Below are positions 1 through 27,861 of a DNA stretch of 33,200 bases, piece after piece. Source of the stretch: Nocardia ninae NBRC 108245. Lineage in GTDB: Bacteria; Actinomycetota; Actinomycetes; Mycobacteriales; Mycobacteriaceae. Positions within the stretch are counted from its first letter, which is position 1. Every line of letters starts with the position of its first letter. A program made the position numbers and the translations under genes. The stretch spans positions 1-33,200 of the forward strand of contig NZ_BJXA01000088.1 of NCBI RefSeq assembly GCF_007990755.1, read 5' to 3'. The notes under the pieces are model-generated. The model was not told the origin of the DNA, did not search any database, and saw only the letters and a program-made list of their open reading frames with translations.

Positions 1-1096
1 ACGCGTCGTCCAGGGCGCCGCGACCGCACACCGGGCACGGGCAGTCGCCGCTCGCCGTGTGATGGTCGCGGGCCCGGCGCAGCAGCTCGAGCACGCGCAG
101 GTCCGCCTCGGCGTCGGCGGTGGTGCCGCGGGTCAGCGCGGTACCGCATTCGGCGAGCCGGGTGGCCACCTCCGCCACCTCGGCGGCGGTGGGCAACGTC
201 AGCCGCACGATCGCGCGCAGACTCGCCGGGCCGCTCTGGTCGTCGAAGGTGCCGATCACCTCGCGCCCCACCGCGGCAAGGTCCGGTTGAGCGGGTCGCA
301 GCAGGCTGTTCACCCGGATGGCGCGGTCGTCGGCCACCGTCTCGAGCGCCTCCAGCAGCTCGAGGCGTTCCTGGCGCGAATCACGCACCGCGCGTTCCAG
401 TTCCAGCCGGCGCATCCGAATTCGTTCCTGCGCCAAGGTCAGTTCGTCCAGGCCGAGCAGTTGGTGCAGTGCGTCGAACAGGTCGCTCGGTTTGCCGTCG
501 ACCAGCGCGCCGAGCTCGCTGTAGGACAGGAACGGGCGGTAGAGCTCCAGCCGGCCCGCCCAGCGGTCGATGTCGAATTCCGTTGGCGCGGCGGGCGGGT
601 GCTGTTCGGTCCACTGCGCGTCGGGGAGATCGGCGTCGGCGGCCCACTCCTTGGCGATGGTCAGCTGCGGCTTGTTTCCGGTGGTGAGCAGCTCCACTTC
701 GATGCGGGCGGTGCCGCCGTCGTGCAGGTTGCGCCAGCCCTCGCGCCAGGCCGCGGATCGGCCGTCCCAGCGGCGGTTTCCGCCGGTGAACACCAGCTCT
801 GCGGCCTCGGCGAAGCTGGATTTGCCGCTGCCGTTGCGGCCGACGACCAAGGTCAGGCCTGGCCCGGGCGGTAGTTGCAGTTCGGCCTCCGGGCCGATGC
901 CGCGGAAGCCGCGGACCCGGATGGCCCGCAGGAAGATCCCGCCGTCATCGAATCGGGTTGCCCGATCATCGTTCTCACTACCGCCGAGGGCGCGCAGGAC
1001 GGTTCGTGCGACCGAGGGCGTCACCGCGGGATCGTCGGCCAGCCGCCGGGTCACCACCTCGGTCAGCCGAGGCACCGGATCGGCGTCGGGACGCAA
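1..1096 (-). CDS. SMC/RecF-like AAA ATPase with zinc-hook motif (partial, 3' part outside window)
   Basis: The reading frame runs off the left edge, leaving 365 codons. Seen: after about 85 residues comes an RVRGFRGIG segment and a P-loop GRNGSGKSS near residue 89, the typical N-terminus of RecF/SbcC/RecN-type ATPases. A charged, probably helical stretch (residues about 190-230) follows. Close to the edge (about residue 350) is CPCPVCGRG, like the CPxC zinc hook at the tip of the Rad50/SbcC coiled coil. The start is TTG at 1096: it is the only start codon just downstream of an in-frame stop and has a GGAGGGGG ribosome site 10 bases upstream. Known: such proteins bind DNA and use ATP in end processing or repair. 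Inferred: a DNA-repair or defence ATPase. The C-terminal ATPase half is not visible, so the subfamily is open. It is transcribed away from the SWIM cluster. Confidence 0.8.
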   Translation of the reverse strand, partial: MRPDADPVPRLTEVVTRRLADDPAVTPSVARTVLRALGGSENDDRATRFDDGGIFLRAIRVRGFRGIGPEAELQLPPGPGLTLVVGRNGSGKSSFAEAAELVFTGGNRRWDGRSAAWREGWRNLHDGGTARIEVELLTTGNKPQLTIAKEWAADADLPDAQWTEQHPPAAPTEFDIDRWAGRLELYRPFLSYSELGALVDGKPSDLFDALHQLLGLDELTLAQERIRMRRLELERAVRDSRQERLELLEALETVADDRAIRVNSLLRPAQPDLAAVGREVIGTFDDQSGPASLRAIVRLTLPTAAEVAEVATRLAECGTALTRGTTADAEADLRVLELLRRARDHHTASGDCPCPVCGRGALDDA

Positions 1097-1517: not shown

Positions 1518-4391
1518 ATGACGCGCTGGAGCGAGGACCAGGTCACGGCGCTCGCGCCGGACGCGAGCTCGCTGTCGGCCGCGCGCAAACTCGCGAGTCG
1601 CTGGCGCGGCACCGGGCAGCACGACATCGCGCTGTGGGGACTGTGCCAGGGCAGCGGCGCCAAGCCGTATCAAACGACCGTCGACCTGTCCGGGCCCGCG
1701 TACAAGTGCTCCTGTCCCAGTCGCAAGTTCCCGTGCAAGCACGCGCTGTCGCTGTTGCTCGAGTGGGCGGCGGGCCGGGTCGAGCAGGCGCCGGGAATCG
1801 CCGATTTCGCGGCGAGCTGGATCGACGGCCGAGTGGCCAAGGCCGCCAAGCCTGCGGCGGAGTCCACCACCCGCACCGCGAGTCCCGCGACCGCGCAACA
1901 GCGCCGGGTCCGGGTCACCGCAGGGCTCGCCGAGCTCGACGTCTGGCTGGGCGATCAGGTGCGGACCGGGCTGGCGCAGACCGACCGCTCGTTCCGGGCG
2001 TTCGAGGCGATCGCCGCCCGAATGGTCGACGCGCAGGCCCCCGGCGTCGCCGCGGCGCTGCGCCAGCTGCCGACCGCCGTGGTGACCAGGGCCGACTGGC
2101 CCGAGGTCGTGCTGCGCGAATACGCGCGGCTGCACCTGCTCATCGCCGCGCACCGGCGGCTGGACGAGCTTTCGCCCGAGTTGTCCGCCACCGTACGCAC
2201 GCACGTCGGTTACCCGAATCCCGCCGAGACGGTGCGCACCGAGCCTGCGGTCCGCGATCGGTGGATGGTGCTCGGCGTCCGGATCTCCGAGGACGAGCGC
2301 CTCTACACGCGGCGAACGTGGTTGTACGGACGCGCATCTCGGCGCTGGGCGCTGGTGGTCGACCACTCGTTCGGTTCGCCGGGCTTCCCCGCCGACGTGC
2401 CGACGCTCGGCTTGCTGGCCGACGCGGACCTGCACTACTACCCCGGCGCCGCGCCGCTGCGGGCGCTGTGGGGCGAACGCCACGGTGCGGCAGAACCTTT
2501 CACGACCCTGCCGATCGATCCGGACCACCCCGGCACGGTGGCGGCCGCGCTCGATGACCATGCCGCCGCGCTCGGCGCCGATCCGTGGCTGCGCGGTTGG
2601 CCGGTGCTGCTCGTCGATGTGATACCGGTGCACACCGAAAACGGTTGGTACATCACCGAATCCGACGGCACCGCGTTACCGGTGGCGCCGGGCGAGCAGC
2701 CGTGGCGACTACTCGGTGTGTCCGGCGGCCATCCGGTGACCGTGGCCGCCGAGTGGACCAGCGAGGGCCTGGTGCCGATCTCGGTGTTCAGTGCGGGCGA
2801 GGTGATCGACCTGGCCAGGCTCGATCCGGTCGGCCGGAGCACGTCGCAGACCCGGACGACACAGTCCTCGAGCTCGGCGGATCTGACCTCCGTCGCGCTG
2901 CTCGGCACCGCGCGCCGGGCACCGGACCTCGCCCAGCTCGCCGCACCGGTGGCGCGCGCCGCCGACCGGCTGCCCACCGATCCGGCCCTGCGCCTGCTCG
3001 AATCTGCCGCGCTTCAAGACGTTTTCGCGCGCGGCGGGGCCCGTGCGGTCACCGCGACCGCGCCCGAACCCGCCGAGGACGACCCCCGACGACTGCTGCC
3101 ATCCACCGCCGCGGGCCACCTCGCGCGCATGCTCCAGGAGCGCTCCCCCTTTCTGCCCGAATGGTTCGCCGCGGCCACGCCGTTCGACTACCGCGCGCCG
3201 GACGCGCTGTGCGGGCAGCTGCTCGATCAGGCGAAGAGCAACGCCGAGCTGCGTGAGCCGCTGCTGCGCCTGGCCGGCACTCGTGGCCGATGGCTGGCCG
3301 GCCAGCATCCGGAATGGCGAAACCTGGTGCGCAAGCAGACCGCCACGGTGTCCACCGAGGAGGTGTGGCAGTTCGGTCAGCCACCGGAACGGCGAGCGTG
3401 GCTGGCCGAGTTGCGCCGGCGGGACGCGGACGCGGCGCGTGACACGCTCGCCGCGGCCTGGCCGAAGGAGCCCGGGCCGTTGAAGGCGGAGCTGCTCGCC
3501 GTCCTCGCCGACCGGATCTCGCGGGCGGACGAGCCGCTGCTGGAGGCCGGGTTGGACGATCGACGCTCCGATGTCCGGCGGACCGCCGCCGGGCTGCTCA
3601 CCCTGCTGCCCGATTCGGCGTTCGCGCAGCGCATGACCCGCCGCGCGGGCGACTGGATCCAGGTCGAGCACCGGCTGCTGCACACCGAACTCGTTGTCGC
3701 CCTGCCCGATACGCTCGATCCACCCGCGCACCGCGACGGCATCACCGACCGCAGCGTCGAATTCACCTACCGCTGGGGTGGTGGCCCCGACGTCACCGCG
3801 GGCAGGCTGCGGCAGCTGGTCGCGGCGACACCGCTCAGCCACTGGGCGAGCGCGCTCGGCGCGCCGGACAAGGCCGTCAAGGTGACGATCGACGACCGCT
3901 TCCGCCAGCCGGTCTTCGACGGCTGGGTGGATGCCGCACTGGCGCAGCATGATTCGTCCTGGGCGCGGGCGCTGTTCGACGCGGGCGTGCCCACCGACGT
4001 CGCCATGCTGCGCAGGCGTGAGCTGTTCGCGCTGCTGCCACTGGCCGATCGCACCCGGCACCTGCTCGAGCTGGACGGCTCCTGGCTCTCCGAAGTCGAG
4101 GCGCTGCTGCCCGCGATGGGACATCCGTGGCCGGAACCGCTGGCGCAGCACCTGATTCTGCTGCTGTTCGAACGTGCCCGCGCGGCGGCCCGCCGCCCCG
4201 AGGCGCACGGCAATACCCCCAACGCGCACCGGTCGCTGCTGTCCGCCGCGTCGGTGCACCTGCCCGTTACCGCCGCGAGCGCCGCCGCCGTGGTCGCGCG
4301 CCGGTGCGGCGATCCCGCCTGGGAGCGAGCCTTCGATCAGCTCGCACACGACCTCAACCACCGCTCGATGATGCTCGAGGAGTTGCAGTGA
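1518..4391 (+). CDS. SWIM zinc finger-DUF5691 fusion protein
   Basis: 957 residues. Seen: a SWIM zinc finger with Cys64-x-Cys66, Cys73-x-His75 in a KCSCPSRKFPCKH context, then a helical region to about residue 430 like YehQ-type SWIM proteins. From about residue 452 (SVALLGTARR) to the end lies what I recognise as a DUF5691 region. The start is ATG 1518 behind a purine-rich GGAACGGGGGAA. The open frame extends upstream, but without a comparable ribosome site. Known: SWIM fingers bind DNA or protein; DUF5691 has no assigned function. It opens the cluster and ends 2 bases before the ATG of the MoxR gene (or overlaps its GTG alternative), so translation is probably coupled. Inferred: the substrate- or nucleic-acid-recognition part of the system. 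The fusion is unusual, since I know these domains as separate proteins. Confidence 0.85.
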   Translation: MTRWSEDQVTALAPDASSLSAARKLASRWRGTGQHDIALWGLCQGSGAKPYQTTVDLSGPAYKCSCPSRKFPCKHALSLLLEWAAGRVEQAPGIADFAASWIDGRVAKAAKPAAESTTRTASPATAQQRRVRVTAGLAELDVWLGDQVRTGLAQTDRSFRAFEAIAARMVDAQAPGVAAALRQLPTAVVTRADWPEVVLREYARLHLLIAAHRRLDELSPELSATVRTHVGYPNPAETVRTEPAVRDRWMVLGVRISEDERLYTRRTWLYGRASRRWALVVDHSFGSPGFPADVPTLGLLADADLHYYPGAAPLRALWGERHGAAEPFTTLPIDPDHPGTVAAALDDHAAALGADPWLRGWPVLLVDVIPVHTENGWYITESDGTALPVAPGEQPWRLLGVSGGHPVTVAAEWTSEGLVPISVFSAGEVIDLARLDPVGRSTSQTRTTQSSSSADLTSVALLGTARRAPDLAQLAAPVARAADRLPTDPALRLLESAALQDVFARGGARAVTATAPEPAEDDPRRLLPSTAAGHLARMLQERSPFLPEWFAAATPFDYRAPDALCGQLLDQAKSNAELREPLLRLAGTRGRWLAGQHPEWRNLVRKQTATVSTEEVWQFGQPPERRAWLAELRRRDADAARDTLAAAWPKEPGPLKAELLAVLADRISRADEPLLEAGLDDRRSDVRRTAAGLLTLLPDSAFAQRMTRRAGDWIQVEHRLLHTELVVALPDTLDPPAHRDGITDRSVEFTYRWGGGPDVTAGRLRQLVAATPLSHWASALGAPDKAVKVTIDDRFRQPVFDGWVDAALAQHDSSWARALFDAGVPTDVAMLRRRELFALLPLADRTRHLLELDGSWLSEVEALLPAMGHPWPEPLAQHLILLLFERARAAARRPEAHGNTPNAHRSLLSAASVHLPVTAASAAAVVARRCGDPAWERAFDQLAHDLNHRSMMLEELQ

Positions 4392-4393
4392 CC

Positions 4394-5488
4394 ATGACCG
4401 ACGTGACGCCCGACCTGCTGCGTCCGCACGCCGAACAGGCCTACGCCGACGAACTGCGCGCGCTGGCCGCCGCCGACGAGCGTCCGCGCCCGCCGTCCTG
4501 GCGGCTGTCCCCGTGGGCGGTAGTCACCTACCTGCTCGGCGGCACCCTCGACGACGGCACCGTGATCAGCCCGAAGTATGTGGGGCCGCGCAGGCTGATG
4601 GAGGTGGCGGTCGCGACGCTGGCCACCGACCGGGCGCTGCTGCTGCTCGGCGTGCCCGGCACCGCCAAAACCTGGGTGTCGGAACATCTTTCGGCGGCCA
4701 TCTGCGGCGAATCGACGCTGCTCGTGCAGGGCACCTCGGGGACCGCGGAAGAGGCGATCCGGTACGGCTGGAACTACGCGCGGCTGCTCGCCGAGGGCCC
4801 GAGCGAGGGCGCGCTGGTGCCGTCGCCGGTGATGACGGCGATGCGCGGCGGCGCCATCGCCAGGATCGAGGAGCTCACCCGCATCCCGTCCGACGTGCAG
4901 GACGCGTTGATCACCGTGCTGTCCGAGAAAACGCTGCCGGTACCGGAACTCGGCACGGAGGTGCAGGCGGCCAAGGGCTTCAACGTCATTGCGACCGCCA
5001 ACGACCGCGACCGCGGCGTGAACGAGCTGTCCTCCGCGCTGCGCCGCCGCTTCAACACCGTGGTGCTGCCGCTGCCCGCCAGCGAGGACGAAGAGGTCGC
5101 CATCGTCAGCCGCCGCGTCGAACAGCTCGGCGCCTCGCTGGAACTGCCGAAGGTGCCCGCCGCGGCCGAGGAGGTGCGCCGGGTGGTGCGCGTCTTCCGC
5201 GAACTGCGCTCCGGAATCACCGCCGACGGCCGCACCAAGCTGAAATCGCCCTCCGGCACGCTGTCCACCGCCGAGGCGATCTCGGTGATCACCAACGGGA
5301 TCGCGCTGTCCGTGCACTTCGGGGACGGCGTGCTGCGGGCCGCCGACATCGCGGGCGCCGTCCTCGGTTCGGTGATCAAAGATCCGGTCGCCGACGCGGT
5401 GGTGTGGACCGAGTACCTGGAAGCCGTTGTCCGCGAACGCCCGGAGTGGTCGGACTTCTACCGGGCCTGCCGCGAGGTCTCCGGATGA
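4394..5488 (+). CDS. MoxR-family AAA+ ATPase (YehL-like)
   Basis: 364 residues. Seen: Walker A GVPGTAKT at 86-93, Walker B IARIEE at 155-160, a sensor-1 region FNVIATAND near 197-205 and an arginine-finger-like RRRF soon after. The order and spacing are those of MoxR AAA+ proteins. Known: MoxR ATPases act as chaperone-like remodellers that work with VWA-domain partners, here the gene at 8045. Start: ATG 4394 has GAGGAG 11 bases upstream; GTG 4388, which overlaps the previous stop as GTGA, is an equally possible start only 5 bases after it. The 3' end overlaps the next gene as ATGA. Inferred: the motor of a four-protein complex, by analogy with E. coli YehL in the YehL/M/P/Q set. Confidence 0.92.
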   Translation: MTDVTPDLLRPHAEQAYADELRALAAADERPRPPSWRLSPWAVVTYLLGGTLDDGTVISPKYVGPRRLMEVAVATLATDRALLLLGVPGTAKTWVSEHLSAAICGESTLLVQGTSGTAEEAIRYGWNYARLLAEGPSEGALVPSPVMTAMRGGAIARIEELTRIPSDVQDALITVLSEKTLPVPELGTEVQAAKGFNVIATANDRDRGVNELSSALRRRFNTVVLPLPASEDEEVAIVSRRVEQLGASLELPKVPAAAEEVRRVVRVFRELRSGITADGRTKLKSPSGTLSTAEAISVITNGIALSVHFGDGVLRAADIAGAVLGSVIKDPVADAVVWTEYLEAVVRERPEWSDFYRACREVSG

Positions 5489-7950
5489 GCGCGGCCGATC
5501 CCGGTTCGGCGGACGGCGGTGCGCTGACCCGGGTGTTCGGCATCCGCCATCACGGGCCGGGCTCCGCGCGCTCGCTGCGGCTGGCGCTGGCGGAATTCCG
5601 GCCGGACACCATCCTGATCGAGGGGCCCGCCGACGCCGATCCGCTGGTCGGCTACGTTGCGGCCGAAGGGATGCAGCCGCCGGTCGCACTGCTGGCCTAT
5701 GTGCCCGACGCGCCCGCGAAAGCCGCGTTCTGGCCGTACGCGGTGTTCTCGCCGGAGTGGCAGGCGCTGGCCTACGCGGCCGAACACGAGGTGCCCGTAC
5801 GCTTCTGCGATCTGCCCGCGAGCATCGTGCTGGCCGCCGAGGAGGAGCCCGGTGATCGGTTCGATCCGCTGACCGAGCTGGCCGCGGCGGGCGGTTACGA
5901 CGATGCCGAACGCTGGTGGGACGCCGTGGTCGAATCCTCGCCCGACGCCACGGCTTTCGAGGCGATCACCGAGGCGATGGGTGCCCTGCGCGAAGGTGCC
6001 GAGCAGCTTGCGACCGAGCTGGAGCCGGTCGGCATCACAACGAACGGCCGCCGCGACGAGGCCGAACAGGTTGCCGCCGAATATGATTCGCCCCTGTCCG
6101 TCAACCTACGGCCCGAACATGTAGCTGCCGAGAATGATTCGACCCCATCCATCGACCTGCGACCCGAAGCGGTCCGCGGGGAACCGGAGACCAATTCGGT
6201 CGCCGAGGCCACCGACGATGTCCTCGAGCTGGAACCGATCCGACTCGGGCCCGTCCGCATCGACGCGCACACGCTGCGGCGCGAGGCGTACATGCGGCAG
6301 ACGATGCGAAAGGCGTTGAAGGACGGGGCGGTCCGGCTCGCGGTGGTGTGCGGGGCATGGCATGCACCCGCGCTGGCGGGCAAGCTCGGGCCCGCCGCCC
6401 CGGATACCCGCCTGTTGAAAGGACTTCCGAAGACGAAGGCCACGTTGACCTGGGTGCCGTGGACACATTCGCGGCTGGCCACGACCTCCGGATACGGCGC
6501 GGGGATCACCTCGCCCGGCTGGTACCACCATCTGTTCACCGAGACCGAGCGGCCGATCGTGCGCTGGCTCACCAAGGTCGCCGGGGTGCTGCGGGCGCAC
6601 GATCTGCCGGTGTCGAGCGCGCACATCATCGAGGCCGTCCGGCTCGCGGACGCGCTCGCCGCCATGCGCGATCGCCCGCTGGCCGGATTGTCCGAGGTCA
6701 CCGAGGCCACCAGGGCGGTGATGTGCGCGGGCGACGAGACGATGCTGCGGCTGGTCGTCAACGAACTCGTCGTCGGCGAGGCCCTCGGCACCGTGCCCGA
6801 GGGCACGCCGACCGTCCCGCTCGACGCCGACCTACGCGCCCGGACCCGCTCGCTGCGGATGAAGCAGGAGGCCTCGTCCCGGGTGCTCGACCTCGACCTG
6901 CGCAAGGAACGCGAGGTCGAACGATCGCGCCTGCTGCACCGGCTGCGCGTGCTCGAAATCCCGTGGGGCGAGCTGACCACCAGCGAGGTGCGCAGCACCG
7001 GCACCTTCCGCGAGACCTGGACGCTGCAATGGCGGCCGGAGTACTCCATCTCCATCATCGAGGCCTCCCGCTGGGGCACCACCATCCGCACCGCCGCCGA
7101 GGCGAAGATCCTCGACACGGCCGCGCGAGACGAGAGCACCGTCGGCGACCTCACCGCCGCGCTGGAGGTCGCGCTGCTGGCCGACCTCGGCGGCGCCACC
7201 GACGGATTGATCAGCAGGCTGGAATCGGCCGCCGCGCTGGATCACGACATCACCCACCTGCTCGCCGCATTGCCGGGCCTGATCAGGACGCTGCGCTACG
7301 GCGATGTCCGCGGCACCGACACCAAGGCCCTCGCGCACGTGGCCGACGGCCTGCTGGTGCGCGTCTGTGCCGGCCTGCCCGGCGCCGTCACCGGGCTGGA
7401 TACCGACGCGGCCACCGAATTGCGCGCCCAGCTCGACGCCGCGCACACCGCCATCCATACCCGCGACGACGGCTGGGCCACCGGCGAATGGCTCGGCGCG
7501 CTGCGCAAGCTCGCCGACCGGGACGACGTGCACGGCGCCCTGGTCGGCCGCGCCGTCCGGCTACTCTGCGACGCGGGCCTCATCGACGAGACCGATTCCG
7601 CCCGTCGGCTTTCCGCCGCGCTGTCGGTCGGCAACACCGCCGCCGCGAAGGCCGCCTGGATCGACGGCTTCCTCGGCGGCCGCGGCCTGCTGCTGGTGCA
7701 CGACCGAGAGTTGTTGCGCCTCATCGACGATTGGCTGAGCGAACTGCGCGAGGACCAGTTCGTCGAGACACTCCCTCTGCTGCGCAGAACTTTCGGCGCT
7801 TTCGAATCGGGTGAGCGCCGGGCGATCGGCCGAGCGGTGCGCGATGGGGGTGCCGCCGCCGTCCGATCCGATGGCGACGGAAGTTTCGACATGGCGCGGG
7901 GCAGCATCGCACTGCGCTCCGCCGCAGAGATTTTGGGGGTCGCGGTGTGA
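5485..7950 (+). CDS. DUF5682 family protein (YehM-like)
   Basis: 821 residues, start ATG 5485 overlapping the MoxR stop by 4 bases. Seen: the N-terminal GIRHHGPGSARSLR and a TILIEGPADAD segment are hallmarks of DUF5682 as I know it. A second conserved-looking block, VVCGAWHAPAL, lies near residue 290. The C-terminal half is helical, with no signal peptide or membrane segment, so the protein is cytoplasmic. A tandem 17-residue duplication (6070-6171) sits in a variable linker between the two blocks. Known: the family has no defined biochemical role; members sit beside MoxR and VWA genes, like E. coli yehM. Inferred: a scaffold, or an enzyme whose HH and GxWH motifs suggest a metal or ester site; that last point is speculation. 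Confidence 0.85.
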   Translation: MSAADPGSADGGALTRVFGIRHHGPGSARSLRLALAEFRPDTILIEGPADADPLVGYVAAEGMQPPVALLAYVPDAPAKAAFWPYAVFSPEWQALAYAAEHEVPVRFCDLPASIVLAAEEEPGDRFDPLTELAAAGGYDDAERWWDAVVESSPDATAFEAITEAMGALREGAEQLATELEPVGITTNGRRDEAEQVAAEYDSPLSVNLRPEHVAAENDSTPSIDLRPEAVRGEPETNSVAEATDDVLELEPIRLGPVRIDAHTLRREAYMRQTMRKALKDGAVRLAVVCGAWHAPALAGKLGPAAPDTRLLKGLPKTKATLTWVPWTHSRLATTSGYGAGITSPGWYHHLFTETERPIVRWLTKVAGVLRAHDLPVSSAHIIEAVRLADALAAMRDRPLAGLSEVTEATRAVMCAGDETMLRLVVNELVVGEALGTVPEGTPTVPLDADLRARTRSLRMKQEASSRVLDLDLRKEREVERSRLLHRLRVLEIPWGELTTSEVRSTGTFRETWTLQWRPEYSISIIEASRWGTTIRTAAEAKILDTAARDESTVGDLTAALEVALLADLGGATDGLISRLESAAALDHDITHLLAALPGLIRTLRYGDVRGTDTKALAHVADGLLVRVCAGLPGAVTGLDTDAATELRAQLDAAHTAIHTRDDGWATGEWLGALRKLADRDDVHGALVGRAVRLLCDAGLIDETDSARRLSAALSVGNTAAAKAAWIDGFLGGRGLLLVHDRELLRLIDDWLSELREDQFVETLPLLRRTFGAFESGERRAIGRAVRDGGAAAVRSDGDGSFDMARGSIALRSAAEILGVAV
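6070..6171 (+). repeat. Tandem 51-base in-frame duplication inside the DUF5682 gene
   Basis: Two adjacent 51-base units (6070-6120 and 6121-6171) encode 17 residues each: VAAEYDSPLSVNLRPEH and VAAENDSTPSIDLRPEA. They share 11 of 17 residues and about 37 of 51 bases, so the duplication is not recent. The surrounding segment is acidic and low in complexity, which suggests a flexible linker between two conserved blocks. Confidence 0.85.
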
Positions 7951-8048
7951 GTACGCCACTGCTTGCCGCACCGTCCGGCACCGTCGTCCGGGCTAGATCC
8001 GCGCGGCCTGCGCCGTTCGTCAGTTCGACCACTCAGGGGATGCGATGA
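7947..8048 (+). CDS. 33-residue bridging mini-ORF
   Basis: This small frame starts with GTG at 7947, overlapping the DUF5682 stop as GTGA, and ends with TGA at 8046-8048, overlapping the ATG of the VWA gene as ATGA. It fills the whole 94-base gap. The peptide (MSTPLLAAPSGTVVR, then Arg/Pro/Ser-rich) matches nothing I know. The layout would let ribosomes move from DUF5682 to VWA without leaving the mRNA, so the act of translation may matter more than the product. Caution: overlaps of this kind can arise by chance in high-GC DNA, and the VWA gene also has its own AGGGGA site. Confidence 0.4.
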   Translation: MSTPLLAAPSGTVVRARSARPAPFVSSTTQGMR

Positions 8049-9205
8049 ACACCGACAACGAAACCCAGGCGCGGCGTTGGCGTTTGGTGCTCGGCACCGC
8101 TGCGGAAGAAGGGCTCGGCGGCCTCGGCTCGGCCGACGACGTCGCGATGGATCGCGCGTTGTCCGCGCTGTACAACGACGACGAACGAACCTCGGGCAAA
8201 CGCTCGGGTGGGCTGGAGGGGTCCGCGCCCAGGGTGGCGCGCTGGCTCGGCGACATCCGCAATTACTTTCCCTCGACCGTCGTCGAGGTGATGCAGCGCG
8301 ACGCCGTGCAGCGGCTGAATCTCACCCAGTTGCTGCTCGAGCCGGAGCTGCTCGAGGCGGTGGAGCCCGACGTGCACCTGGTCGGCACCCTGCTGAGCCT
8401 GAACCGGGTGATGCCCGAAACCACCAAGGCCACCGCGCGTCTGGTGGTGGAGAAGGTGGTGCGCGAGATCGAACAACGCATCGCCGCGCACACCGTCGCC
8501 GCCGTCTCCGGCGCGTTGAACCGGGCCGCGCGCGTCTCCCGCCCCCGGCTGCGCGATATCGACTGGGACCGCACCATCCGCAAGAACTTGGCCAACTACC
8601 TGCCCGAACACCGCACCGTCGTGCCGGAGCGGCTGGTCGGCTACGGCCGCAAAGCCCAAGCGGTACAGCGCGATGTGGTGCTGGCCATCGACCAATCCGG
8701 CTCGATGGCCGCAAGCGTCGTCTACGCCTCCGTCTTCGGCGCCGTCCTCGCCTCCATGCGTTCGCTCAAGACCTCCCTCGTCGTCTTCGATACCGAGATC
8801 GTCGACCTCACCGACAAACTCGACGACCCCGTCGACGTCCTGTTCGGCACCCAGCTCGGCGGCGGCACCGACATCAACCGCGCCATCGCCTACTCGCAAA
8901 CCCTGATCACCCGCCCCACCGACACCCTCTTCGTCCTCATCTCCGACCTCTACGAGGGCGGCGTCCGCGACGAAATGCTGCGCCGGGTCAACGCCATGAA
9001 GGAATCCGGCGTCCAGGTGGTCGTCCTGCTCGCGCTCTCCGACGAGGGCGCCCCCGCCTTCGACCACGACAACGCCGCCGCCCTGGCCGCCCTCGGCGTC
9101 CCCGCCTTCGCCTGCACCCCCGACAAGTTCCCCGCCCTGCTCGCCGTGGCCCTGGACCGCGGCGACCTCCAAGTCTGGGCCAACGCCAACTCGAGCCATA
9201 GCTGA
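8045..9205 (+). CDS. VWA domain protein (YehP-like)
   Basis: 386 residues. Seen: an N-terminal helical region (1-200), then a von Willebrand A domain with a complete MIDAS metal site: D216-x-S218-x-S220 (DQSGS), the GGGTDIN threonine, and the aspartate in LISDLYEGG. There is no signal peptide or membrane segment, so it is cytoplasmic. ATG 8045 has AGGGGA 4 bases upstream. Known: VWA proteins with intact MIDAS bind a partner through a metal ion, often the MoxR ATPase encoded beside them. Inferred: the adaptor of the SWIM/MoxR/DUF5682/VWA complex, matching E. coli YehP in size and position in the set. It is the last gene of the cluster. Confidence 0.92.
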   Translation: MNTDNETQARRWRLVLGTAAEEGLGGLGSADDVAMDRALSALYNDDERTSGKRSGGLEGSAPRVARWLGDIRNYFPSTVVEVMQRDAVQRLNLTQLLLEPELLEAVEPDVHLVGTLLSLNRVMPETTKATARLVVEKVVREIEQRIAAHTVAAVSGALNRAARVSRPRLRDIDWDRTIRKNLANYLPEHRTVVPERLVGYGRKAQAVQRDVVLAIDQSGSMAASVVYASVFGAVLASMRSLKTSLVVFDTEIVDLTDKLDDPVDVLFGTQLGGGTDINRAIAYSQTLITRPTDTLFVLISDLYEGGVRDEMLRRVNAMKESGVQVVVLLALSDEGAPAFDHDNAAALAALGVPAFACTPDKFPALLAVALDRGDLQVWANANSSHS

Positions 9206-9209
9206 AGGA

Positions 9210-9247
9210 ATGTTGGTCATGTATCCTTGAATGTACATCACCAACAT
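9210..9247. promoter_or_regulatory. Palindromic operator of vapBC
   Basis: Arms 9210-9223 (ATGTTGGTCATGTA) and 9234-9247 (TACATCACCAACAT) are reverse complements at 13 of 14 positions, with a 10-base spacer. The site lies 18 bases before the vapB start, in the only gap between the VWA gene and vapB. Known: VapB/VapBC complexes bind palindromes over their own promoter. Inferred: the autoregulatory operator; TATCCT at 9222-9227 could be the -10 it covers. Confidence 0.75.
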
Positions 9248-9264
9248 CGAGACCGAGGTGTGCC

Positions 9265-9492
9265 ATGTCAGTGACGCAGATCGACCTGGACGACGACGCG
9301 CTTGCCCAGGCAATGGCACTGTCCGGCGTCCGCACGAAGAAGGAGGCGGTCAATATGGCTCTTCGCTTCTACGCGGAACAACAGCAACGCGCCGCCCTGG
9401 TGCGCGAACACTTCGAGCGCGCTCGCACCTGGGGTGCGGTGGCGGACGCCGAGCGGCTGCATCTCGCCGAGAAAGCGGAACGCGATCGGTGA
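9265..9492 (+). CDS. vapB: VapB-type antitoxin
   Basis: 75 residues. Seen: an N-terminal DNA-binding segment of ribbon-helix-helix type (VTQIDLDDDALAQAM, then GVRTKKEAVNMALRF), as in short VapB antitoxins of actinobacteria. A charged helical tail follows, the part that usually wraps the toxin. ATG 9265 follows GAGG by 6 bases. The stop overlaps the toxin GTG as GTGA, the normal arrangement for a pair in which the antitoxin is made first. Inferred: it neutralises the VapC at 9489 and, with it, represses transcription from the palindrome at 9210-9247. Confidence 0.88.
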   Translation: MSVTQIDLDDDALAQAMALSGVRTKKEAVNMALRFYAEQQQRAALVREHFERARTWGAVADAERLHLAEKAERDR

Positions 9493-9896
9493 TCTACCTT
9501 CTGGACACCTCCGGACTGGTGCGCCTGCTCGCAGACCCGGCCATTCAGGCAGCCTGGGAGCAAGCCATCGTCGCGCAGACCGTCGGCTCCTGTTATGTAC
9601 AGCGCTCGGAGTTCCTCTACAGCGCCCGCGACGCGCAGGAGTTCGATGAGCTCAACGAGATGTTCGCGCGTATCTACCCGGACGTTTCGGTGCCGAAGCA
9701 GGCGGGTGCCTGGGTCAACGCCGTGCAGCACCGCATGTCACGAGTCGGTCAGCATCGCAGCGCCTCGGCCGTGGACCTGATCATCGCGGCAACGGCCGCC
9801 CACCATGGGCTGACCGTGCTGCACGACGACAACGACTTTCGCACCGTCGCCAGGCATGCGACGGACTTGACCGAACACAACATCCGCAACTATTAG
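9489..9896 (+). CDS. vapC: VapC-type PIN-domain ribonuclease toxin
   Basis: 135 residues, a usual length for VapC. Seen: the first PIN acidic residue Asp6 in IYLLDTSGL, Glu41 in QRSEFLYS, then Asp in SAVDLIIAATA and the closing acidic cluster in LHDDNDF. All four acidic positions of the metal site appear to be present, so the toxin looks active. Known: VapC enzymes are Mg-dependent RNases that cleave tRNA or rRNA. GTG 9489 overlaps the antitoxin stop. The longer open frame upstream (from 9231) runs through the antitoxin and is not the start. The RNA target cannot be read from the sequence. Confidence 0.9.
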   Translation: MIYLLDTSGLVRLLADPAIQAAWEQAIVAQTVGSCYVQRSEFLYSARDAQEFDELNEMFARIYPDVSVPKQAGAWVNAVQHRMSRVGQHRSASAVDLIIAATAAHHGLTVLHDDNDFRTVARHATDLTEHNIRNY

Positions 9897-16499: not shown

Positions 16500-17753
16500 A
16501 TGCCCGAGTTACTGTTCCCGCTCGACTCCAGCAAGCGGTTCACCGAGCAGAAGATCGTCGGCCACAACCGGTGGCACCCCGATATCCCCGCCGCGGTAAC
16601 CGTCAAACCGGGCGACGAGTTCCGCGTGCACGTGCGCGAGTGGTTCGACGGCGCCATCCGCAACGACGACTCCGCCGAGGACGTACTGAACGCGCCGCTC
16701 AGTACGGTGCACTGCCTGTCGGGCCCGTTCGCGATCGAGGGCGCGCAGCCCGGCGACCTGCTCATCGTCGACATTCTCGACATCGGCCCCATCCCACAGG
16801 AGGACGCGGGCCCGCTCGCCGGTCAAGGCTGGGGCTACACCGGCATTTTCGCCACCGACAACGGCGGCGGCTTCCTCACCGAACATTTCCCCGATGCCTA
16901 CAAGGCCATCTGGGATTTCAGCGGTCAGACCACCACCTCGCGGCACATCCCCGGGGTGAAGTTCACCGGTATGACGCACCCCGGCTTGATGGGTACCGCC
17001 CCGTCCGCCGCGCTGCTGTCGACATGGAACGCCCGGGAGGAGGCGCTGATCGCGACGGACCCGCACCGGGTGCCGCCGCTGGCGCTGCCGCCCGAACCGC
17101 GCGACGCCGTCCTCGGCACGCTCACGGGCGCCGAGTTCGATCGAGTCGCCGCCGATGCCGCGCGCACCGCGCCGCCGCGGGAGAACGGCGGCAACCAGGA
17201 CATCAAGAACTTCACCCGGGGCAGCAGGGTGTTCTATCCGGTGTTCGTCGACGGTGCCCACCTCTCGGTGGGTGACCTGCACTTCTCCCAGGGCGACGGC
17301 GAGATCACCTTCTGCGGCGCCATCGAGATGGGCGGATTCATCGACCTGCGGGTCGATCTCATCAAGAACGGCATGGAGCTCTACGGCGTCAGCGAGAACG
17401 CCATCTTCGTTCCGGGTAACTCCGGACCCAATTACTCTGAGTATCTGGCCTTTTCGGGCACCTCGGTGACTCTCGACGGCGAACAGCGCTATCTCGACTC
17501 GCAGCTGTCGTTCGAGCGGGCCTGCCTGCACGCCATCGACTACCTCACCAAGTTCGGTTACTCCCCGGAGCAGGCTTACTTATTACTCGGCGCCGCGCCC
17601 ATCGAAGGTAGGTTCTCCGGCGTCGTCGATATTCCGAATTCCTGTGCCACCGTCTACATTCCGACCGCGATCTTCGACTTCCCCGTGCTCCCGACCGCAG
17701 CCGGTCCGACTCGGATCGACCCGGGCCCCGGCGCGCCGCGCGCCACCCGCTGA
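16500..17753 (+). CDS. fmdA: Acetamidase/formamidase (FmdA/AmdA family)
   Basis: 417 residues, close to the ~410 of the family. Seen: the N-terminal HNRWHPDIPAAVTVKPGDEF block, GPFAIEGAQPGDLLIVDILDI, the GIFATDNGGGFLTEHFP region, HPGLMGTAPS, a GGNQDIKNFTRGSRVFYPVF stretch and DLHFSQGDGEITFCGAIEMGG, all typical of FmdA. Known: the enzyme hydrolyses acetamide or formamide to ammonia and the acid; the M. smegmatis acetamidase is of this family. ATG 16500 has AAGGAAA upstream. Inferred: its expression is controlled by the MarR and AmiC-like proteins encoded upstream. Whether formamide or acetamide is preferred cannot be read. Confidence 0.95.
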   Translation: MPELLFPLDSSKRFTEQKIVGHNRWHPDIPAAVTVKPGDEFRVHVREWFDGAIRNDDSAEDVLNAPLSTVHCLSGPFAIEGAQPGDLLIVDILDIGPIPQEDAGPLAGQGWGYTGIFATDNGGGFLTEHFPDAYKAIWDFSGQTTTSRHIPGVKFTGMTHPGLMGTAPSAALLSTWNAREEALIATDPHRVPPLALPPEPRDAVLGTLTGAEFDRVAADAARTAPPRENGGNQDIKNFTRGSRVFYPVFVDGAHLSVGDLHFSQGDGEITFCGAIEMGGFIDLRVDLIKNGMELYGVSENAIFVPGNSGPNYSEYLAFSGTSVTLDGEQRYLDSQLSFERACLHAIDYLTKFGYSPEQAYLLLGAAPIEGRFSGVVDIPNSCATVYIPTAIFDFPVLPTAAGPTRIDPGPGAPRATR

Positions 17754-24273: not shown

Positions 24274-26076
24274 ATGCTGGCCAGCGGTGACGTTTTCGCC
24301 GGTTATGTCATCGAGCGGCAACTGGGTCGCGGTGGCATGGGATCGGTCTACCTGGCGAAACACCCTCGGCTGCCGCGCCTGACCGCGTTGAAGCTGTTGA
24401 ACAGGGAGATGTTCTTCGACAAGGAGGTGCGGGCGCGGTTCGAACGGGAGGCGGATCTGGTCGCCCAGCTCGACCACCCGAATATCGTCACGGTCTACGA
24501 CCGCGGGCTCGAGGCCGAGCAGCTGTGGATCTCCATGCAGTTCATCGACGGCATCGACGCCGCATCGGTGCAACCGCAGGCGCTGCCGCCGGAGCGGGCC
24601 GTGCAGATCGTCAAGGAAACCGCGGACGCCCTCGACTACGCGCACGGCATCGGTGTGCTGCACCGCGACGTGAAACCCGCGAACATCCTGCTGGCGCGCG
24701 GCGGTGGTGGCCGCGGCGAGCGGGTGTACCTCACCGACTTCGGCATCGCCCGCTTCCGGGACGACACCGGCCATCTCACGCAGACCGGAACCTTCACCGC
24801 CACACTGGCTTACGCCTCGCCCGAGCAGCTCACCGGTTCGTCGCTGGATCACCGGTCGGATCAGTATTCGCTGGCGTGCTCGCTGTTCTGGTTGCTCACC
24901 GGGACCGGCCCGTTCTCCGCGACCAACCCCGCGGCGGTCATCCAGGGTCATCTGCAAGGTGCTCCGCCCGCACTGAGCAGCCACCGCCAGGGCCTGCCCT
25001 ACGCGCTGGACAGCGTGCTGGCCAGGGCGATGGCGAAGCGACCGGAGGACAGATATCCCAGCTGCGCCGACTTCGCCGCCGCCGCCCGGCACGCCCTGAC
25101 CAACCCCAGCGTGCCCTCGATGCCGGTGGCCGGCGGGCCGCGGCCGTTCACCGCACCACCGACGGCAGTGGCCGGACCACGCCCGACCACCGGGCCGAGG
25201 CCGACCACCGGACCCCGCCCCACCACCGGACCGCCCACCCCGACCACCGGCGCGCCCTACCCGGCGCAGTACGGCCAGCCGACCAGCGGACCGAATCACC
25301 TTGCAGGATCACCGTTCACGCCGCCACCGGCCACGCTGGCCGCGCCGCAGTACGGCAACGGCCAGGCCCCGCAGCCGACCGCCCCGTACGCGGGCCAGCA
25401 GTTCGGCAACAACTACGGCCCGCCGCCCATGTCTCCGGTCAGCGTCGGCGGACGGCCGCCGAAGAAATCCAACGTCGGCGTCATCATCGGCATCTGCGTC
25501 GGAGTCGTGGTGCTGCTGGTAGTGACGCTGGCCATCATCGGCGCGGTCAGCGATTCGACCGCCTCCGGCGGCGACACGACACCGAGTTCGGTCGCGTCCG
25601 GCGTGAACGGGCCCGGTAAAACGGTGCCCGCGACCGTGGACTCGATCAGTGCCGAGTTCCCGCGCATGGTGCCCGCCAGCAAGACGGAGCAGGTCGGCTA
25701 CAACGGCGCCAAATGCTGGGAGACCGACGCCACTTACACGCCCTCGCCGAGCGAGGGCGACCCGGAGTTCGGTGACTGGGCCTGGCAGTGGCGCTGCTAC
25801 GGCGGCGGCGACAGCTCCGACCCGCTCTATCGCATCTACGTCTACAAGTCCACCGCCGACGTGCAGGCGGTGCTGAAGACGCTGCCCGCCAACACCAAGT
25901 CCACCGACACCAACGGCGGAAAGTCCTACACCAACTACAAATACGACACCGGCGGCCCGAAGATCGTCACCGCCTTCACCGGCGATCCGGACCGTGCCCA
26001 GTACCTGATGTTCACCGACGGCTCCGGCTCCATCGATCAGACCCTGCGCTGGTGGCGCTCGGCGCCGCTGAACTGA
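24274..26076 (+). CDS. Transmembrane Ser/Thr protein kinase, tandem copy 1
   Basis: 600 residues. Seen: a complete kinase domain (about 10-270) with the glycine loop GRGGMGSVY (18-26), Lys40, HRDVKPAN at 130, DFG at 155 and the activation segment TGTFTATLAYASPEQL; then a Pro/Thr-rich linker with PRPTTG repeats, one membrane helix (about 401-425) and an outer domain ending in WWRSAPLN. The outer domain has two cysteines (AKCWETD and WQWRCYGG) likely to form a disulfide. Known: PknB-type kinases phosphorylate activation-loop threonines and sense outer ligands; this outer domain is not PASTA. ATG 24274 has GGAG 5 bases upstream. The next gene is a paralogue 3 bases away. Confidence 0.95.
   Translation: MLASGDVFAGYVIERQLGRGGMGSVYLAKHPRLPRLTALKLLNREMFFDKEVRARFEREADLVAQLDHPNIVTVYDRGLEAEQLWISMQFIDGIDAASVQPQALPPERAVQIVKETADALDYAHGIGVLHRDVKPANILLARGGGGRGERVYLTDFGIARFRDDTGHLTQTGTFTATLAYASPEQLTGSSLDHRSDQYSLACSLFWLLTGTGPFSATNPAAVIQGHLQGAPPALSSHRQGLPYALDSVLARAMAKRPEDRYPSCADFAAAARHALTNPSVPSMPVAGGPRPFTAPPTAVAGPRPTTGPRPTTGPRPTTGPPTPTTGAPYPAQYGQPTSGPNHLAGSPFTPPPATLAAPQYGNGQAPQPTAPYAGQQFGNNYGPPPMSPVSVGGRPPKKSNVGVIIGICVGVVVLLVVTLAIIGAVSDSTASGGDTTPSSVASGVNGPGKTVPATVDSISAEFPRMVPASKTEQVGYNGAKCWETDATYTPSPSEGDPEFGDWAWQWRCYGGGDSSDPLYRIYVYKSTADVQAVLKTLPANTKSTDTNGGKSYTNYKYDTGGPKIVTAFTGDPDRAQYLMFTDGSGSIDQTLRWWRSAPLN
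25174..25227 (+). repeat. 18-base coding repeat (GPRPTT x3) in kinase 1
   Basis: Three tandem 18-base units encode GPRPTT, followed by the degenerate GPPTPTTG. They lie in the linker between kinase domain and membrane helix, which is rich in Pro and Thr. Confidence 0.85.
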
Positions 26077-26079
26077 TCC

Positions 26080-27861
26080 ATGCTGCAACCCGGAGAGATA
26101 TTCGCCGGGTACACCATCGAACGGCTGCTCGGTCGCGGCGGCATGGGCTCGGTGTACCTGGCGCGGCACCCCCGCCTGCCACGGTTGACGGCGATGAAGC
26201 TGTTGAACCCGGAAGTGTTCCACGACAAGGAGATCCGCACTCGGTTCGAGCGGGAGGCCGACCTGGTCGCCCGGCTCGATCACCCCAACATCGTGACCGT
26301 GTTCGACCGCGGCGTCGAGGACGAGCGGCTGTGGATCTCGATGCAGTACATCGACGGCACCGACGCCGCCGGGGTGGAGGCGCGATCGTTGCCGCCGGAA
26401 CGCGCGGTGCAGATCATCGGCGAGACCGCCAAGGCGCTCGACTTCGCGCACCGTCGTGGCGTGCTGCACCGAGATGTGAAGCCCGCCAACATCTTGCTCG
26501 AACGCACCGCGGGCGCCGGCGAACGGGTGTTCCTGACCGATTTCGGCATCGCGCGCTTCCGCGACGACACCGGGCGGCTCACGCAGACCGGAACATTTAC
26601 CGCCACACTGGCGTACGCGTCACCGGAGCAGCTGTCGGGCGCGCTGCTCGATCACCGCTCGGACCAATACTCGCTGGCCTGCACGCTGTTTCGGCTACTG
26701 ACCGGCACGGTGCCGTTCGACGCCACCAACCCGGTCGCGGTGATCCAGGGACATTTGCAGGTGCCGCCGCCGCCGGTCAGCCGGTTGCGGCCGGGGCTGC
26801 CGGTGGCGCTGGATGCGGTGCTGGCCAAGGCGATGGCGAAGCGGGCCGACGGGCGGTTCGATTCCTGCGCCGAATTCGCCGGTGCCGCTTGGCGTGCGCT
26901 CACCGCGGCGCAAGAGTTCGGCTCGCCCCCGGCGCAGCAGCAATTCGCGCCGTCCTCGGCACTGCAACAGTTCACGCCATCCCCGGTACACCAGCAGCTC
27001 ACGCCATCCTCGACACCGAACCAGTTCTCGCCCTCCGCCGCACCGCACAAGTTCGCACCGTCCTCCACGCCGAGCCAGTTCGCGCCACCTCACCCGCTGA
27101 ATCAGCAACGCGTCATGGGGCAGAACGGGCACGATGCCAGTCCCGCCCGGCGCGGCCCGGTTCCCGTGCAGCGCCCGAAGTCCAACGCCAAGCTCGGCGG
27201 CGGCATCGGCGTCCTTCTGGTGCTCGGCCTCATCGCCTCGCTCATCATGTCCTCGCGCGGCGAATCAGGTTCGGCGGGACCGACGGTCACCACGACGGCG
27301 ACTACGCCACGCGCCACAGCCATTGCCGACACCACCGAGCCGCCGACCTCGGCACCACCGGCGACGACCGCCGACCCCGCCCAGGTGGGCACGAACGCCG
27401 CGGCGCTCAGCGCCGAGTTCCCGGCGATGCTGCCGAAAACCACTGCCCAGCAGCTGGTTCACTCCGGATCGGGCTACAACAAGGCAGGTTGCTTCTCCTA
27501 TGATCCGACTTCCGCGCCGACCATCGACGAGGAGGATCCCGCCTTCGGCGCCTGGCTGGTGATGTGGCGCTGCTTCGGCGGCACCGAGAACAAAGCGGCC
27601 TTCTCCTTCTACCTCTACAACTCCCCCGCCGACGTCCACGCCGCGCTGGACGCCTTACCCGCCAACGACCGGACCACGGCCACCAATCACGGCCACACCT
27701 ACACCAATTACACGTTGCACAACAGCAGTACCCGGCGCCCGCGGATGATCACGGAGTTCACCGCCGACCCGCAACGCGCCACGATCCTGATGTACAGCGC
27801 GGGCTTCATCGCCACCGAGTCCGAGCTGATGCAGTGGTGGACCGACGCCCCACTGAACTGA
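26080..27861 (+). CDS. Transmembrane Ser/Thr protein kinase, tandem copy 2
   Basis: 593 residues, paralogous to copy 1 along the kinase domain (EIFAGYTIERLLGRGGMGSV, LHRDVKPANILL, LTDFGIARFRDDTG, TGTFTATLAYASPEQL) and in the outer domain (LSAEFPAMLP, two cysteines in AGCFSYD and MWRCFGG, and the ending WWTDAPLN). Linker and membrane helix (about 372-391) differ: the linker is Gln/Ser/Pro-rich with 9-residue repeats. ATG 26080 is only 3 bases after the previous stop, so the two are co-translated. Catalytic residues are intact, so it is an active kinase. Inferred: the pair may form heterodimers or answer to related ligands. No known Pkn orthologue is evident. Confidence 0.95.
   Translation: MLQPGEIFAGYTIERLLGRGGMGSVYLARHPRLPRLTAMKLLNPEVFHDKEIRTRFEREADLVARLDHPNIVTVFDRGVEDERLWISMQYIDGTDAAGVEARSLPPERAVQIIGETAKALDFAHRRGVLHRDVKPANILLERTAGAGERVFLTDFGIARFRDDTGRLTQTGTFTATLAYASPEQLSGALLDHRSDQYSLACTLFRLLTGTVPFDATNPVAVIQGHLQVPPPPVSRLRPGLPVALDAVLAKAMAKRADGRFDSCAEFAGAAWRALTAAQEFGSPPAQQQFAPSSALQQFTPSPVHQQLTPSSTPNQFSPSAAPHKFAPSSTPSQFAPPHPLNQQRVMGQNGHDASPARRGPVPVQRPKSNAKLGGGIGVLLVLGLIASLIMSSRGESGSAGPTVTTTATTPRATAIADTTEPPTSAPPATTADPAQVGTNAAALSAEFPAMLPKTTAQQLVHSGSGYNKAGCFSYDPTSAPTIDEEDPAFGAWLVMWRCFGGTENKAAFSFYLYNSPADVHAALDALPANDRTTATNHGHTYTNYTLHNSSTRRPRMITEFTADPQRATILMYSAGFIATESELMQWWTDAPLN
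26938..27099 (+). repeat. 27-base coding minisatellite (six units) in kinase 2
   Basis: Six consecutive 27-base units encode nine residues each, with consensus (Q/N)QFxPSxxP: QQFAPSSAL, QQFTPSPVH, QQLTPSSTP, NQFSPSAAP, HKFAPSSTP, SQFAPPHPL. The linker of copy 1 has different repeats at the same place, so this arose after the gene duplication. Copy number could vary between strains. Confidence 0.9.

Follow-up and report, generated by a model that had tools for sequence, protein, structure and literature searches.

What system is encoded by the four adjacent genes at positions 1518 to 9205 of a 33,200-nucleotide stretch of Nocardia ninae NBRC 108245 (contig NZ_BJXA01000088.1, positions 1 to 33,200; the whole stretch is hereafter called the window), and do these genes belong together? 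A Pfam scan identified four intact genes here, encoding from left to right SWIM-DUF5691, MoxR, DUF5682, and VWA_CoxE proteins. Comparisons with other genomes showed that these four genes, comprising five modules, are one conserved unit whose composition is fixed across phyla. Moreover, motifs, profile comparisons, and structural models indicate that the N-terminal domain of the DUF5682 protein probably has a TIKI-like fold.

The set lies within a genome of 9.7 Mb, on contig C88, and its nearest relative among the loci listed is that of Nocardia vulneris (81% identity in the best segment). All four genes are encoded on the plus strand. The SWIM-DUF5691 fusion protein (957 amino acids, 1518..4391; PF04434 and PF18944) was modeled by AlphaFold2 with a predicted local distance difference test (pLDDT) score of 93.3 and a predicted template modeling (pTM) score of 0.78. 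It contains a SWIM zinc finger of the CxC...CKH form (1677..1763, residues 54–82; 26.4 bits versus a cutoff of 19.6), followed by DUF5691, a helical-repeat (HEAT-like) scaffold (2880..4385, residues 455–956; 458 bits). Only 2 bases separate its stop from the ATG start of the MoxR-type AAA+ ATPase, a YehL homologue with an intact Walker A motif (4394..5488; PF07728, AAA_5, 135.6 bits). The MoxR stop overlaps by 4 bases with the start of the DUF5682 gene, which encodes an 821-amino-acid YehM homologue (5485..7950; PF18934, 848.9 bits), and the gene for the VWA_CoxE protein, a YehP homologue of 386 amino acids (8045..9205; PF05762, 177 bits), starts 94 bases further on. The metal ion-dependent adhesion site (MIDAS) of this VWA protein is complete (D216-Q-S-G-S220, T275, and D301; the DQSGS motif is at 8690..8704). 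Hence, the original prediction for this locus, which described these genes with overlapping or closely spaced ends and an intact VWA metal site, was accurate, as was its pairing of MoxR with a VWA partner: an AAA+ protein with Walker A and B motifs (AAA_5 family) adjoins a VWA_CoxE protein with a DxSxS-T-D MIDAS. These features are widely retained among related loci, with Walker A in 90/90 and a Walker B-like pattern in 89/90, DxSxS plus GGGT[DN] in 83/89, and CxC..C[KR]H in 76/80 SWIM loci.

A genome-collection scan with a DUF5682 alignment yielded 575 relatives, of which the best 80 were examined using purpose-made profiles to call modules; these are the top-scoring loci, and the sample therefore leans toward kin of the window. 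All five modules (SWIM, DUF5691, MoxR, DUF5682, and VWA) were present in 69 of these 80 loci, far more often than chance would give, supporting the prediction of one conserved multi-part machine. The order SWIM-DUF5691-MoxR-DUF5682-VWA was maintained on one strand in 56 of the 69, and SWIM-DUF5691 was turned round (divergent) in the other 13, all from Streptomyces and Streptantibioticus. Some sets are spread out, such as that of L111 (counted among the 69), where VWA is 9 kb away. Six of the remaining 11 loci have a contig end close to the set (L062, L075, L085, L086, L102, and L115), four showed DUF5682 alone (L074, L100, L103, and L105), and L081 was without SWIM and VWA. DUF5691 was nonetheless encoded outside the fetched locus in all four genomes with DUF5682 alone, and within the locus in L081; the L074 contig begins 275 bases upstream, and a further neighbor may lie beyond the break. 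Based on record names, we assigned the 80 loci to Actinomycetota, Cyanobacteria, Chloroflexota, Bacteroidota, Planctomycetota, and Pseudomonadota. Across 75 loci, the pairwise distances of the five proteins correlated with one another at r values of 0.81 to 0.94, in keeping with a single unit; these correlations have no vertical-descent baseline.

Fusion of SWIM to DUF5691 was considered as a general rule and rejected, as a single open reading frame (ORF) was found in only 22 cases (the window, L036, 15 Nocardia, and five other actinobacteria), with two adjacent genes elsewhere; the fusion was also found on a Hymenobacter plasmid. DUF5682 and VWA are themselves fused into one ORF in two loci of a single actinobacterial genus (L037, 9653–13453, and L038, 7922–11944; 1266 and 1340 amino acids, respectively), and the set in these loci is perhaps a third class. 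Adjoining the fusion is a conserved ORF whose copies in the two loci align over 1,732 columns; the L037 copy had no Pfam match. A conserved sixth gene was likewise sought and rejected. The most widespread additional protein clusters are present in 17 and 16 of 96 loci with one genus dominating, and those crossing genera reach 16, 11, 10, and 9 of 96 (the clustering used ORFs picked by length and is hence noisy).

The set exists in two classes: class I uses DUF5691, and class II, the type of E. coli yehLMPQ, uses DUF4132 and is also found in actinobacteria. Class I sets comprise SWIM, DUF5691, MoxR, DUF5682, and VWA, as in the window and on plasmids of Deinococcus, Methylosinus, Hymenobacter, and Rhizobium. 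On the Methylosinus trichosporium plasmid, the VWA gene is split into three ORF pieces (L123, 11154–12379). Class II sets comprise DUF4132, MoxR, DUF5682, VWA, and a YehQ-type SWIM protein, and were found in an E. coli chromosome and plasmid record and in Iodobacter; in Allorhizobium, DUF4132 is placed between DUF5682 and VWA. The second set in the actinobacterial genome G128 is class II, and its YehQ homologue carries a CxC..CRH pattern with no Pfam SWIM match. A class I set in Chitinophaga (L112) is followed by a DUF4132-type gene. In Fusobacterium vincentii (L127), SWIM, MoxR, DUF5682, and VWA are present, and the gap between SWIM and MoxR had no match to the DUF5691 model. The original description of the window set as the actinobacterial version of the machine could not be upheld, given that class I occurs in each of the other phyla named above and also in Deinococcota, and that the E. 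coli class is present at two loci from actinobacteria.

In E. coli K-12, the gene row reads yehF (WGR), yehH (pseudogene), yehI (DUF4132), yehK, yehL, yehM, yehP, and yehQ; the genes of the set are labeled putative or uncharacterized in the K-12 record. The predicted relationship to this set held for three of the four proteins. MoxR and VWA share 41% and 39% identity with YehL and YehP, respectively, and DUF5682 shares 28% identity with YehM over 378 columns (E 3e-20), plus a 36% identical N-terminal segment; YehM itself scored 330.8 bits with the DUF5682 model. A role for YehQ as the counterpart of SWIM-DUF5691 was not supported: it contains SWIM and is without DUF5691, BLASTP found no similarity between the two proteins, and hhalign aligned the SWIM region only (72 columns, E 0.0037, probability 8.9). 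A common DUF5691 and DUF4132 family was also tried and rejected, as hhalign showed no relation between them (E 0.4). Hence, the two share a slot, not a sequence.

Co-occurrence across whole genomes followed the same partnerships. Among 149 Actinomycetota genomes, DUF5682 was found in 10 and DUF5691 over the cutoff in 9, all 9 being shared; G124, the remaining genome with DUF5682, has DUF4132 in its locus in place of DUF5691, and G049 has a DUF5691 match below the cutoff and no DUF5682. Of 117 cyanobacterial genomes, 7 had DUF5682 above the cutoff and the same 7 had DUF5691 above it, with sub-cutoff matches to DUF5682 in one further genome and to DUF5691 in six. G155 and G219 carry the two genes on a single contig, separated by 1.7 Mb and 3.1 Mb, respectively, and G150 carries them on different contigs. 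Co-occurrence is therefore not explained by linkage alone. DUF5682 was over the cutoff at 14 places in 12 of 299 Pseudomonadota genomes, where class was assigned by score and neighbor. The six high-scoring places (≥658 bits) correspond exactly to the six genomes with DUF5691 over the cutoff, in all cases nearby, and two other genomes had DUF5691 below the cutoff and no DUF5682. The eight low-scoring places (329–385 bits) are in eight genomes that all encode DUF4132, nearby on the same contig in seven and on another contig in G458. DUF4132 was absent from the four pseudomonadotal genomes with class I only, and two genomes had DUF4132 without DUF5682. The partner rule (class I with DUF5691, class II with DUF4132) held in all over-cutoff cyanobacterial and pseudomonadotal genomes and in 10/10 actinobacterial genomes (G124 judged from its locus). 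Hypergeometric P values for co-occurrence were 1e-9 to 3e-14, uncorrected for phylogeny. Had these families lain mostly apart from each other, the original prediction would have been refuted; they were instead found together or co-occurring.

What, then, might DUF5682 contribute? The AlphaFold2 model (59 sequences; pLDDT 86.0, pTM 0.80) shows an alpha/beta domain ending near residue 345, with mainly helices beyond it. The helical repeats near the C terminus (7030..7851) are evident from the secondary structure of the model and from structure matches concentrated at residues 516–789. We propose the N-terminal alpha/beta domain (5524..6519) to be a TraB/TIKI-like hydrolase domain, based on motifs, hhalign comparisons with controls, and a Foldseek search of BFVD. 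The match to TraB and Ere was first proposed from motifs and then tested. Residues invariant in 14 sequences of both classes include R21, H22, H23, E46, S89-P90-E91, D109, R266-E267, M270, G290, and H293, and the presumed active-site residues are kept in 94–95 of 95 loci. The R21-H22-H23 motif (5545..5553) follows the first strand, with [VI]R[HR]H.P in 94/95 loci, and the RREAYM ... GAWH293 motif (6277..6363) matches RE..M then [GA]..H in 95/95. The resulting order of GxxH, strand 2 Glu, R-[DEN]..[MW] helix, and GxxH is that of the fetched TraB and Ere rows. Motifs and modeled strands together place a His after strand 1, a Glu on strand 2, and a second His in GxxH.

Profile comparisons used 75 of 113 N-domain rows (after coverage and identity filters), 13 of 17 TraB loci, and 20 of 25 Ere loci; one Ere row (L141) looks out of frame and was included in earlier Ere comparisons and excluded from a later one. 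The N-domains scored 28.5 against TraB with hhalign (27.4 in the reverse direction) over the RExxM-GxxH stretch, and a second alignment covered the stretch between the His of strand 1 and the Glu of strand 2 (22.4 and 24.7). Column shuffles, a lenient control, reached maxima of 22.8 (60 shuffles) and 21.8 (100 shuffles), both below the 28.5 and 27.4 obtained for TraB; unrelated or reversed control profiles scored 11.5–21.6, and the TraB-Ere pair 19.9 and 20.1. With Ere as query, the score was 33.9 or 32.3, again best over RExxM-GxxH, and shuffles reached 20.1 and 25.1. Similarity thus exceeded that of unrelated families for TraB, and for Ere in one direction only. In addition, a TraB family protein ranked second of 266 matches among the viral models of BFVD (probability 1.00, E 0.013).

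Several results weigh against this assignment. TIKI enzymes such as Ere and RRSP use a 2His/2Glu site (PMC6254334), and the first Glu is absent from DUF5682 (G-[IV]-R-H-H), leaving three of the four positions; six TraB rows examined (G-[TS]-x-H) are also without it. We term DUF5682 TIKI-like, closest to TraB, and do not file it as a member. The hhalign probability for TraB was 9% at best, and a third TraB alignment (21.0) was out of register. The Ere score depended on direction, falling to 21.4 or 20.5 the other way, level with one control pair (21.6), and second Ere alignments were out of register, with strand 1 not paired with strand 1. The BFVD match to TraB had a root mean square deviation of 14.7 and a template modeling score by target of 0.37, and the first-ranked match was an unrelated Sec6 protein (E 0.0027, probability 0.41). 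A whole-protein search of PDB gave no match at E < 0.001, its list being filled by the helical tail. Lastly, a Pfam scan found TraB in only 1/24 N-domains (E 0.11), behind several chance-looking families, and named DUF5682 alone in the window protein.

Taken together, we consider it about as likely as not that the four genes encode one machine powered by ATP, with MoxR-VWA gating DUF5682, a TIKI-like hydrolase, or supplying it with substrate; hydrolysis, gating, and substrate recruitment are the steps that we infer. MoxR would form an ATP-driven ring. By analogy with NorQD and CbbQO, VWA may bind this ring and hold the target through its metal site. The VWA partner of NorQD binds the ring without needing its MIDAS for this, whereas the target does require the MIDAS (PMC9976466). 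It is because of this analogy that VWA is proposed as the link between MoxR and DUF5682, supported by the natural DUF5682-VWA fusion. DUF5682 would then be the catalytic or client part sitting on VWA, with its putative hydrolase domain carried on a helical-repeat tail, and the SWIM protein and its scaffold partner (DUF5691 in class I, DUF4132 in class II) may recognize or recruit substrate. ATP hydrolysis by MoxR could thereby gate the hydrolase or feed substrate to it inside the cell. More tentatively, the set might represent a previously unrecognized hydrolase system that depends on ATP, crosses phyla, and is unlike the Clp/Lon/FtsH kind, in which a MoxR-VWA ring controls a cytoplasmic TIKI/TraB-like protease or esterase aimed by SWIM and an exchangeable DUF5691 or DUF4132; E. 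coli YehLMPQ would serve as its model.

A maturation chaperone would account for the MoxR and VWA_CoxE family matches, with MoxR-VWA remodeling a metalloenzyme or other complex in the manner of NorQD, CoxDE, or MadBC, and DUF5682 serving as a noncatalytic adaptor or client. In keeping with this, the only NCBIfam models matched by MoxR were MadB_ATPase and GvpN (both far below cutoff), and NorQD requires its MIDAS to act on its target (PMC9976466). However, no further gene family is common to more than 17 of 96 loci, the larger clusters being dominated by one genus, and the conservation of the presumed DUF5682 active site goes beyond the need of an adaptor; we consider this explanation somewhat unlikely. 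A role in the response to nucleic acid damage, where SWIM (and WGR/DUF4132 in class II) would bind DNA or RNA and MoxR-VWA would remodel the bound material, appears less probable still. DUF4132 genes, with WGR in E. coli, do adjoin class II, and in D. radiodurans, genes for DUF4132 and WGR are strongly induced when DdrO is depleted (PMC8533742), but these DdrO-regulated genes may be distinct from this operon. LexA-type patterns were found upstream of only 2 SWIM genes (L088 and L095) among 80 SWIM-bearing loci, and at the E. coli locus, the E. coli LexA pattern had 0 matches and a loose actinobacterial pattern had 1, away from the set. SOS control was accordingly rejected as a candidate, with no LexA-type box shared across loci.

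The original prediction also regarded the set as a candidate conflict system, and an anti-phage or other conflict role, as kin of the MoxR-vWA ternary systems, would share the same MoxR-VWA core idea. Its patchy spread (DUF5682 over the cutoff in 10/149, 7/117, and 12/299 genomes) might point this way, as might the 31 plasmid-collection records that match and the one set found beside restriction genes. Nevertheless, PADLOC gave no match, the window VWA has no extra effector domain and no VMAP match in the Pfam scan, and bpMoxR scored 19.8 bits, below its cutoff of 27. Together with a composition that is fixed across phyla and just one hit, to an unverified contig, in 50,697 phage records, these results make a conflict role very improbable, and the ATP-driven hydrolase machine remains our preferred reading.

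Outside the set, a gene for a PIN-domain (VapC-like) protein is located just after VWA (9231–9896; its listed frame probably starts too early, with the PIN domain beginning at residue 89), and an AAA_23 ATPase gene, cut by the window edge, is divergent from the operon (2–1096, minus strand). Both had been highlighted as relevant flanks, namely a vapBC pair and a zinc-hook ATPase; any zinc hook of the ATPase would lie beyond the window edge. Searches of other loci (L003 and L028–L121) yielded no match to the PIN gene, and the ATPase matched only L036, from the genus of the window, and 14 of 15 named Nocardia loci; both genes are incidental to the set. Further along are a gene with a strong match to acetamidase/formamidase (16500–17753; 580 bits) and a tandem pair of protein kinase genes with three bases between them (24274–26076 and 26080–27861). 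Elsewhere, MoxR, DUF5682, and VWA are found together on L130, a 14 kb contig from human feces recorded as "Bacteriophage sp." but unverified, which is perhaps a bacterial fragment.

MoxR-VWA machines are already known; neither this set of partners nor an interpretation of DUF5682 as TIKI-like was found in the literature searched (most subscription journals were outside its reach). Such an interpretation provides a specific biochemical hypothesis for DUF5682 and YehM, tied to particular residues (H22/H23, E46, and H293), and, if true, extends the known targets of MoxR-VWA machines to include a hydrolase. Among known systems, NorQ/NorD, CbbQ/CbbO, RavA/ViaA, and CoxD/CoxE similarly combine a MoxR AAA+ protein with a MIDAS-bearing VWA, and the window protein belongs to the VWA_CoxE family. 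They are not known to occur with DUF5682, DUF5691, or SWIM partners. TraB/PrgY/GumN and erythromycin-esterase-like proteins (TIKI superfamily) share with DUF5682 the GxxH after strand 1, the strand 2 Glu, the R-x..x-[MW] helix, and the later GxxH, whereas DUF5682 has a long helical-repeat tail and is tied to a MoxR-VWA set. The MoxR-vWA ternary conflict systems (eLife 2020 e52696) also pair MoxR and vWA with a third component, but that component is VMAP, iSTAND, or a beta-propeller and their vWA effectors are variable, none of which applies to the window; a term search of the main text of that study found no SWIM, DUF56, YehM, TIKI, or EreA. Finally, the yehLMPQ set has homologous MoxR, DUF5682, and VWA proteins and likewise a SWIM protein, and differs in having DUF4132 in place of DUF5691, its SWIM gene last, and a YehQ that is kin in the SWIM module only. 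Because DUF5691 replaces DUF4132, the window set is class I, a sister to yehLMPQ rather than a member, and the uncharacterized E. coli K-12 genes are one branch of a two-class system spanning at least seven phyla.

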